The translations under genes were made by a program, and so were the position numbers. Source: Clostridia bacterium (lineage in GTDB: Bacteria > Bacillota > DSM-12270 > Thermacetogeniales > Thermacetogeniaceae). Taken from it: 64,000 nucleotides of DNA. The first letter of the stretch is position 1. The number at the start of each line of letters is the position of its first letter. This document shows, piece after piece, positions 1 to 62,196 of this stretch. Below the pieces are notes generated by a model. That model did no database searches. It was not told the origin of the DNA and worked only from the letters and a program-made list of their open reading frames with translations. The stretch spans positions 1-64,000 of the forward strand of contig CADDZD010000002.1 in assembly GCA_902812385.1 (NCBI GenBank). Direction: 5' to 3'.

Positions 1-118
1 ACGGGCTCAAGGCACCAAGTAAAGTCCGACCTCGCTTCGCCAGCCGCTAAAGAATTAATTCGATAAAACCCATTTTCGTTCCTCTGTTGGTGACGCCGGA
101 GGCGGCGTGATCGTCTGC
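1..118. repeat. 3' remnant of a foldback repeat copy, cut by the window edge
   Basis: Noncoding. Bases 34-118 align in order with bases 484-553: a cgcttcgccagc-like segment, a gataaaacc segment, then TTTTCGTTCCTCT, ttgg, a small hairpin (ACGCCG, loop gagg, CGGCGT) and gtgat-gtctg. This looks like the right end of another copy of the repeat that begins again at 135, so two copies probably lie in tandem with the first mostly outside the window. I see no credible coding sequence here. Confidence 0.5.
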
Positions 119-244
119 CCTGAAAATGTTCAGGTTTATCCTTGCGCTTGCTCCCGGACTCCGGTTGAACTCGCTTATAACGCGTCGCAGACGGCAGCGG
201 ACCGGCTCCTATGACGCCATCCATGGCGCATAGTCGCCTAGCTC

Positions 245-340
245 CCCCGCACTCAATAGCACTTTCTCTGTAATGAGACAATTTAATAACAGCCAGTTCT
301 GAATGAACGTTAAAGGACAAAATTCCCTTTGAGTGCGGGG
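245..340. repeat. Inverted-repeat arm or MITE-like insert, 12-bp arms
   Basis: CCCCGCACTCAA (245-256) and TTGAGTGCGGGG (329-340) are perfect inverted repeats around about 70 A+T-richer bases. The shorter copy of the element at 54456-54663 has no equivalent long arm at this place. It is either a small inserted element or an expanded hairpin arm of the same structured element. No open reading frame is supported. Confidence 0.6.
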
Positions 341-388
341 TCGCTTCGGCTGCCGTTAGCTGCTCCTTCGTCAAGGGCGAGTAACAAA

Positions 389-482
389 CCAGCACTCACT
401 GCTGCTTCGTGAGCTGAAAAAGACAAAAAACGGAATTATAAAACAAAGGCTAATTATGTAACAGAGTTTCGGTGAGTGCTGG
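389..482. repeat. Second inverted-repeat arm, related to 245-340
   Basis: CCAGCACTCAC (389-399) and GTGAGTGCTGG (472-482) are perfect 11-bp inverted arms around about 70 A+T-rich bases. The arms share a GCACTCA core with the 245-340 arm, and both are followed by GGGTCGCT on the right. At the same place the 54456-54663 copy has only a short hairpin (AACCT/AGGTT), so the position of a hairpin is kept while its length differs. Confidence 0.6.
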
Positions 483-509
483 GTCGCTGCGCCAGCAAGG
501 ATAAACCGC

Positions 510-553
510 TTTTTCGTTCCTCTATTGGCGCCGCCGGAGGTGGCGTGATGGTC
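510..553. repeat. Flank motif F (shared by repeat copies)
   Basis: TTTTCGTTCCTCT, then ttgg, then a gcgcc...ggagg...ggcg hairpin and tgatggtctg. Nearly the same string occurs at 74-116, and a diverged one at 54666-54705, always on the right side of a foldback core. It therefore appears to belong to the repeat unit. Bases 554-669, between here and the permease stop, show nothing recognisable. Confidence 0.55.
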
Positions 554-669
554 TGTAGTACTGCATACCATAGAAAAGAAAACCGCATTATTCCATTCAT
601 TCAATATTTATCATCAAATTCCTGCTTATTTCGCAGCCATGTGATATTTTTTACAATAGAGCTCAGCCC

Positions 670-40005: not shown

Positions 40006-40206
40006 CAAAAAGAAACCCCACATATGCCGTGGCAGACGGGTGTTTCTGAACCTCGGCTCAGCACGGTGGTGCCCTCCTGGTTGCTTTTTGTTCCCCCGCA
40101 ACGGGGTCTACAAGCCACAACCAGAGCCCAGGCTCCTTATTTTTTGGTGTTGGCTCAAAACTCCCGAGTCGCCACGCACATCGTAGGGTTTTTGCTCCGT
40201 TATGCT
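40006..40206 (-). ncRNA. ssrS: Likely 6S RNA
   Basis: No gene is present between paaK and aspS, but a strong promoter drives a 200-base RNA that folds as a long hairpin. The ends pair: AAACCCTAC and CGTGGC at the 5' side match GCCACG and GTGGGGTTT at the 3' side, allowing G-U pairs. An inner part pairs CTCTGGTTG with CAACCAGGAG around the apical hairpin CCCCGTTGCGGGG, leaving an open middle. The 3' end runs into CTTTTT. In Bacillus subtilis the 6S-1 RNA gene also lies just downstream of aspS. Rod shape, length, promoter and neighbour agree; I could not run a covariance model. Confidence 0.65.
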
Positions 40207-49256: not shown

Positions 49257-49272
49257 ACCATCATCCCTTGCA

Positions 49273-49442
49273 CAACCCGATAACAGGCAGGTCTCCTGGC
49301 TCACAGATCACCCTCCCCCGATCCTTCCCCGGCTGGTGAACCAAGCGGGTGGCTCCTTCGGGTTCGTCCCTGCTTACAGTGGCGGGACCGCTCAGGATTT
49401 GCACCTGATTCCCTATTCTCCCTTGCGGGCACCTGTTACCCG
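49273..49442 (-). promoter_or_regulatory. Cobalamin riboswitch
   Basis: Read on the minus strand, the region has the conserved cobalamin aptamer pieces in order: a closing stem with AACAGGTGCC, GGGAATCAGGTGCAAATCCTG, the strongly conserved GCGGTCCCGCCACTGTAA, GAGCCAGGAGACCTGCC, and the return arm. It directly precedes a terminator and cobT, so high cobalamin should shut the gene off. Confidence 0.93.
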
Positions 49443-49519
49443 TATTATTAAGTTAGCACTCAGACAACTCTATCTTAATTTTGTTCCATCCTTTTGTCAA
49501 TAAGGAGTTTCATCAAATA

Positions 49520-54434: not shown

Positions 54435-54455
54435 CTACCAGAGCGGAATAAACTG

Positions 54456-54663
54456 TCTGGTTATCCTTGCAGGCGTAGCAACCTACGGAGGTTGTTACTC
54501 GCCCTTAACGAGGAGCAGCTCACGGCAGCCGAACTGAGGCATGGATGCCGAAGTAGCCGACTCCGATGCATGGATGCAGCGTAGGAGGCGGTCGGCTGCC
54601 GTCTGCGACGAGTTTTAGGGCGAGTTAAACCGGAGTCCGGGAGCAAGCGCAAGGATAACCAGA
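54456..54663. repeat. Foldback structured repeat element, copy 2
   Basis: A 208-base near-palindromic element between queA and tgt. TCTGGTTATCCTTGC (54456-54470) and its perfect reverse complement (54649-54663) are 15-base terminal arms. ACTCGCCCTTAA pairs with TTAGGGCGAGT, and CGGCAGCCGA with TCGGCTGCCG. At the tip two small hairpins, GGCATGGATGCC (54538-54549) and TGCATGGATGCA (54567-54578), carry the same loop. The element matches copy 1 (135-505) in inverted orientation, including a 39-base stretch with one mismatch near the end. Confidence 0.75.
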
Positions 54664-54707
54664 TTTCATCCTCTGCTGGTGTCACCGGAGCTGACGTGAA
54701 GATCTGC
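54664..54707. repeat. Flank motif F, diverged copy
   Basis: TTTCATCCTCTGCTGG followed by a GTCACCGGAG...GACGTG hairpin and GATCTG. It is a diverged copy of the motif at 510-553 and 74-116, lying on the same side of the element. It ends at the queA stop codon. Confidence 0.5.

Positions 54708-62107: not shown

Positions 62108-62196
<89 letters not shown>

Follow-up and report, generated by a model that had tools for sequence, protein, structure and literature searches.

Background

TwoAYGGAY (Rfam family RF01731), a probable RNA, was first reported in 2010 from Gammaproteobacteria, Clostridiales and the human gut (Weinberg et al. 2010, PMC2864571). It was later proposed to be a clostridial CsrA-binding RNA, at a time when no CsrB-type sponge was known in Clostridia (PMC4333381). 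RF01731 is assigned to the clan CL00106, the Csr-Rsm protein binding clan (PMC5753348). The high-affinity site of CsrA/RsmE is an ANGGAN hexaloop closed by a C-G pair and surrounded by ACA..UGU (SELEX consensus RUACARGGAUGU), and a single CsrA dimer can span two such sites if 10-63 nt separate them (PMC7652899). In the T. phaeum genome paper, repeats are mentioned solely in the CRISPR section.

In this work, two foldback structures were analyzed in a 64,000-nucleotide stretch of the genome of a Clostridia bacterium (the whole stretch is hereafter called the window). An earlier note on this DNA had drawn attention to both copies, and had left their family unrecognised. Here, we report that both copies belong to a known RNA family, that the element containing them is dispersed in the genome, inserts at CTG and forms head-to-tail arrays, and that the RNA probably binds the host regulator CsrA. 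As far as the literature was searched, the mobile nature, the terminator insertion and the co-occurrence with csrA are new, whereas the RNA family is known.

Results

Two copies of the TwoAYGGAY RNA

Both copies are TwoAYGGAY RNAs. The earlier note had named identity to an Rfam family as an outcome that would count against its proposal, and copy 2, at 50 bits, lies above the gathering score of RF01731 (43 bits) and has two AYGGAY-type hairpins within a shared closing stem. Copy 1 keeps a single AYGGAY hairpin, the other tip being the foldback 245-340, and because of the foldbacks inserted at 245-340 and 389-483 it reaches only about 25 bits with the Rfam model. Both copies are well scored by R1, a family-specific covariance model built from relatives (Table 1). 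Other Rfam families (MIR949, SCARNA7) gave chance matches only and were rejected. The plus strand reads CGCC-ATCCAT-GGCG in copy 1 (215-228), and GGC-ATGGAT-GCC (54538-54549) and TGC-ATGGAT-GCA (54567-54578) in copy 2; therefore, the two copies are on opposite strands.

The structures delimited earlier at 135-505 and 54456-54663 are real, with nested pairing arms that include perfect outer arms in both copies and a nested inverted pair in copy 1 (240-265/320-345, 26 nt, 77% pairing), but the elements themselves are longer, 115-555 and about 54439-54706. The predicted folds are unusually stable in copy 1 (133-507, minus strand; z = -7.7, none of 100 dinucleotide shuffles as stable) and in copy 2 (54456-54663; z = -9.6, none of 200). 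Copy 2 is located between queA and tgt, antisense to both, and a search for a promoter-like site at this copy found none; therefore, its GGA strand is perhaps never transcribed, and copy 2 may be silent or transcribed only as the complement, which has no GGA loop. Ordinary RNAs are present elsewhere in the window: a cobalamin riboswitch (49269-49451, minus strand), a 6S RNA (40011-40192, minus strand) and a tRNA (62111-62196, minus strand).

Table 1. Coordinates and parts of the foldback elements in the window
Feature	Position	Strand	Details
Preceding head-to-tail element, right part	1-117	+	Contig start truncates element
Right end of preceding element	87-117	+	RE motif with 3 mismatches; CTG 115-117 common to next element
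Copy 1, complete mobile foldback element	115-555	+	Frame orientation +, RNA core on -; CTG at both ends
Copy 1 left end CTGCCCTGAAAAT	115-127	+	
Copy 1 left outer arm GGTTTATCCTTGC	133-145	+	100% complementary to 495-507
Copy 1 right outer arm GCAAGGATAAACC	495-507	+	Pairs with 133-145
Copy 1 TwoAYGGAY RNA core, interrupted	178-369	-	Model R1: 95 bits, E 1e-22
Copy 1 Rfam RF01731 match	148-303	-	25.1 bits, below gathering
Copy 1 remaining GGA hairpin CGCC-AUGGAU-GGCG	215-228	-	Sequence and model alignment
Copy 1 96-nt foldback CCCCGCACTCA..TGAGTGCGGGG	245-340	.	Occupies expected place of first GGA hairpin tip
Copy 1 second foldback CCAGCACTCA..TGAGTGCTGGG	389-483	.	Replaces outer-arm hairpin tip (CCTCCGTAGG in other copies)
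Copy 1 right end	525-555	+	Hairpin GCCGCC-GGA-GGTGGC, then GTCTG; RE motif with 3 mismatches
Copy 2, mobile foldback element	54439-54706	+	Degenerate left end, left border approximate; arms and comparison with L001-L010
Copy 2 left outer arm TCTGGTTATCCTTGC	54456-54470	+	100% complementary to 54649-54663
Copy 2 right outer arm GCAAGGATAACCAGA	54649-54663	+	Pairs with 54456-54470
Copy 2 TwoAYGGAY RNA (Rfam RF01731) match	54483-54638	+	50 bits vs gathering 43, E 3.3e-7 to 3.5e-5
Copy 2 conserved RNA core	54509-54615	+	Family-specific model R1: 111.7 bits, E 3e-27
Copy 2 GGA hairpin 1 (P2)	54533-54554	+	ACUGAGGC-AUGGAU-GCCGAAGU; tandem GA in stem
Copy 2 GGA hairpin 2 (P3)	54556-54592	+	Apical UGC-AUGGAU-GCA
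Copy 2 degenerate right end	54676-54706	+	Hairpin GTCACC-GGA-GCTGAC, terminal CTG; homologous position in L001-L010

Conservation of the fold and of its loops

Covariation was analyzed in 64 matches from many genomes (57 distinct rows). Compensatory changes preserve the three-way-junction fold, while the loops of both hairpins are constant as ANGGAN. Of the 34 pairs, 33 have changed at least once on both sides; 92.0% of cells pair, compared with a shuffled mean of 70.3%, double-change cells number 371 vs 94 in shuffled alignments, and the covariation score is 0.525 vs 0.149, none of 500 shuffles reaching the observed value of any of these measures. With the partner slid by 1-3 columns, 25-55% of cells paired and the score fell to 0.03-0.08. 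Fitting the alignment to the structure, as was done here, favours pairing, but the effect size and the many different stems in the alignment leave little doubt about the covariation. The earlier claim that the fold itself is under selection is thus borne out, no shuffled or slid control coming close, and the covariance-model check that accompanied it returned significant paired changes in non-coding copies. A coding function was rejected, as the arms and the core lack a conserved frame and the changes are paired.

Both loops are constant as CA(N)GGA(N)G over the 63 aligned copies, and GGA is kept in 62 of these in each hairpin, having been lost once from hairpin 1 (L019) and once from hairpin 2 (L107). 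The apical hairpins with an ATCCAT apex and differing stems, noted before in the two copies of the window, are present as described, and the pattern of varying stems and constant loops holds over the 63 aligned copies. In sub-type B (see below), hairpin 1 has a five-base loop.

Alternatively, selection on the fold could act at the level of single-stranded DNA, with an HUH/Y1-type or hairpin-targeting enzyme reading the hairpins during transposition; the GGA loops would then be enzyme sites that lack an RNA function. We regard this alternative as unlikely. Against it, the pairing is RNA-like, with 15 G-U cells vs 5 A-C cells (11 vs 5 distinct column types) and tandem G-A mismatches maintained on one strand. 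The excess of G-U over A-C is suggestive of the AUGGAU strand acting as RNA, and is not decisive.

A mobile repeat with precise ends

The genome containing the window is a draft of 2.7 Mb in 172 contigs, 92% complete, and its contigs break at these repeats. It has at least 23 matches to RF01731, the cores of which fall into sub-type A, exemplified by copy 2, and sub-type B, exemplified by copy 1. The cores sit within a frame that has the left end CTGCCCTGAAAATAcGTTC and the right end TTGGTGCCGCCGGAGGCGGCGTGGTGGTCTG; 57 matches to the right end (up to 3 mismatches) and 48 to the left end (up to 2) were found in this genome, compared with 0 for the reversed-pattern control. The elements range in size from 59 to about 450 nt, and their asymmetric ends meet the host sequence at CTG. 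Since some frames lack the RNA (C28, 59 nt; C38, 80 nt; C18, 121 nt) or hold other foldback cargo (C6, C81 and C17), the frame seems to be the mobile unit, with the RNA as one of its cargoes. Head-to-tail units share a CTG, as do the elements at 1-117 and 115-555 of the window, and in C76 two near-identical units of 354 nt follow one another in tandem.

Empty sites were sought by joining the flanks of an element at a single CTG and matching them to the sister species G002, in which three sites of the genome under study are contiguous. One of these (C8:12034-12304) is a clean empty site in G002 (CATTC-CCTG-CC vs CATTC-GCTG-CG); the other two are empty as well, with diverged junctions. Mobility follows from the empty site together with the dispersed copies with precise ends. 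The elements are MITE-like, being multi-copy, short, devoid of a transposase gene, precisely ended and polymorphic in insertion with a clean empty site. A noncoding RNA and a non-autonomous mobile element, offered earlier as alternatives, turn out to be both true of the same object. The further suggestion of an RNA of an absent partner protein found no support: no gene travels along with the element, and CsrA, its likely partner, is encoded by the host genome itself.

The asymmetric ends, the subterminal hairpin of the right end, the fixed CTG at both borders and the head-to-tail arrays would suit a fold selected as single-stranded DNA, as would the occupation of hairpin tips by foldbacks and an orientation indifferent to genes. 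However, the core-less frames of 59 nt (C28) and 80 nt (C38) share the same ends, so the core is unnecessary for movement.

Several further observations concern the arrangement of the elements. With respect to the element ends, the TwoAYGGAY core of sub-type A points the opposite way to that of sub-type B (L001-L023), possibly owing to recombination between the inverted arms. A second foldback family of about 95 nt, CCC(A/C/G)GCACTCA..TGAGTGC(T/G/C)GGG, has three stem variants with matching partners and sits in hairpin tips (245-340 and 389-483 in the window, and in C1, C10, C17, C30, C43, C49, C68 and C76), as if the hairpin loops were insertion sites of this family. In L103 (G001:C28), the left flank matches one insertion site of the genome under study and the right flank another (L003, L013), which reflects either a rearrangement between repeats or a misassembly.

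Orientation relative to genes

The upstream gene is in sense to 11 of 23 copies in this genome and to 25 of 48 in others, with genes called as long ORFs rather than by a trained gene finder. A fixed orientation to genes was thus rejected. The consistent placement to a regulated gene that is expected from the Rfam 'Cis-reg' label is absent, and this random orientation argues against the label. That annotation and the intergenic position of the copies examined are what one would expect of a conventional family of dispersed small RNAs or cis-regulatory RNAs whose copies arose by ordinary duplication rather than transposition. We consider such an origin very improbable indeed in view of the random orientation to the flanking genes and the precise ends common to frames with other cargo; it was already disfavoured by the one-CTG empty site and by the duplicated terminators at insertion sites described below.

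Other lineages and probable insertion into terminators

RF01731 is present in 14 of 61 relatives and, within the phylum, in 51 of 399 genomes representing about 25 families (with only six candidates scored per genome), often in multiple copies. In an exact scan of named genomes, assemblies of digester-type Clostridia, with the labels Syntrophomonadaceae, Syntrophaceticus and Clostridia, contained the sub-type B core. In nearly all of 39 loci, pairing of the outer arms continues past the limits of the Rfam model and exceeds the 95th percentile obtained with shuffled flanks; the outer-arm sequence is lineage-specific.

In the genomes G049 and G127, each of the nine copies examined sits between a pair of similar hairpins, both corresponding to the terminator of that locus; at L111, for instance, AGGGCCGTTTTTACGGCCCT occurs on both sides, and at L089 AAACTGCTTCCTAAGAAGCAG does. 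The left-right terminator match of every one of these loci exceeds all cross-locus matches, and eight of the nine copies adjoin the 3' end of a gene. We read these sites as probable insertions into terminators, accompanied by a long duplication of the target. At L111, the poly-T tract remains with the far terminator copy, a placement that would let transcription pass through the element. The terminal sequence GCTTGTTGRCAAA is common to loci of G177 (L191, L210, L211) and of G049, which represent two bacterial families and differ in their arms, suggesting that a common transposase may serve both.

Search for a transposase

Among the pairs of left and right ends in 52 merged stretches of the genome under study and in 30 loci of four relatives, no autonomous copy was found, the cargo being short and non-coding throughout; the same holds for terminator-type ends in 30 loci of G049 and G127. 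In the loci inspected, no transposase-bearing copy lay less than 1.5 kb from the ends, but the genome is 92% complete and its contigs break at repeats. A Y1 transposase as partner was rejected, and membership in IS200/IS605 (Y1, HUH) is not supported, since these ends are missing from the Y1_Tnp loci inspected in the genome under study and in 11 carriers; their absence from the loci of the 11 carriers also speaks against a fold selected as single-stranded DNA.

The only Y1_Tnp gene of the genome (L112, G000:C27:15962-16300, 260 aa) is RAYT-like, and long RAYT-like relatives occur in G001, G002, G013 and G019. The elements could accordingly be REP/BIME-like repeats spread by this single transposase, and their CTG borders recall CT, the cleavage site of E. 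coli TnpA-REP. We hold this to be decidedly unlikely: no copy of the element's ends occurs near L112, which has GGGACGGTTCT repeats of its own on its flanks and probably forms a separate REP system with them, and no RAYT-like relative was found in G008 and G017, RNA carriers with incomplete genomes.

Co-occurrence with csrA

The csrA gene is present in 49 of 51 carrier genomes vs 236 of 348 non-carrier genomes (two-sided Fisher test, p 3.9e-6, with phylogeny ignored and flagellar gene content as a possible confounder). Within the family of the genome under study, csrA was found in nine of ten carriers vs four of ten non-carriers. This association is left unexplained if the fold is selected as single-stranded DNA. 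The genome under study has csrA at C19:15043-15195; one TwoAYGGAY copy (L012, G000:C19:14443-14599) lies 444 nt from this only csrA gene, which could be chance.

In sequence, the RNA conforms to a Csr/Rsm-binding RNA with ANGGAN hexaloops and at least two sites 10-63 nt apart: the two hexaloops lie about 26 nt apart, and in copy 2 the distance from GGA to GGA is about 29 nt. Copy 1 has a single site, having lost one GGA hairpin, and therefore not every copy can be a site for the dimer.

Discussion

The best reading of these data, and in our judgement a fairly probable one, is that of a mobile repeat that spreads a CsrA-binding RNA; its mobility is established by the empty site and the dispersed copies, and its binding of CsrA is suggested by loop shape, clan and co-occurrence. 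In the proposed mechanism, an enzyme acting in trans would recognise the two asymmetric ends and move the element as DNA, and the long inverted-repeat stem would carry the TwoAYGGAY RNA at its tip. Copies read in the direction of the GGA strand would expose two ANGGAN hexaloops, both of which a host CsrA dimer could bridge. Each such copy might then serve as a decoy for CsrA, or might add a CsrA site to a 3' UTR. Conservation of the loop would reflect binding by CsrA or by another GGA reader, with the stems left free to change in pairs. That the mobile DNA element with its CsrA-binding cargo disperses decoys or CsrA-responsive 3' UTR modules, in one lineage within terminators whose hairpin is duplicated, is put forward tentatively.

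If true, a transposable element would be rewiring a global post-transcriptional regulator; if CsrA binds, the binding sites of this regulator would be dispersed by a transposable element in Clostridia. Loop shape, clan assignment and the co-occurrence over 399 genomes make the published guess, based on a motif match, testable. The TwoAYGGAY RNA has been an orphan since 2010, and a mobile multi-copy foldback with this RNA at its tip would explain its patchy, multi-copy distribution and speaks against the 'Cis-reg' type given to it in Rfam. In the literature searched, no prior description of CsrA together with foldback or terminator-targeting mobile repeats was found.

Among mobile repeats, the elements resemble bacterial MITEs and REP/BIME in being short, non-coding, intergenic, multi-copy, foldback-forming and non-autonomous, with polymorphic sites. 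In contrast to these, the family in the window has asymmetric ends, has only CTG at its borders without a long target duplication, and carries as cargo a conserved RNA of about 25 bacterial families; no transposase was found for it. The IS200/IS605-derived PATEs share the asymmetric ends, the subterminal hairpin, the fixed short border sequence and the lack of a long target duplication, whereas no Y1 transposase bears the ends of our elements in the genomes checked.

As in RF01731 (PMC2864571), copy 2 combines an above-gathering match with a three-way junction, two AYGGAY loops and a tandem GA in the stem. Unlike RF01731 as described, the RNA lies here within element ends, is randomly oriented and has an outer foldback beyond the Rfam model; no description of RF01731 as a multi-copy mobile repeat was found in the literature searched. 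Whereas CsrB, CsrC and RsmX/Y/Z are dedicated sRNA genes known from Gammaproteobacteria (PMC4333381), the RNAs considered here are putative transcripts of mobile copies, some of them minus a loop. With these members of CL00106 they share the ANGGAN hexaloops, the closing C-G pair and two sites within bridging distance.
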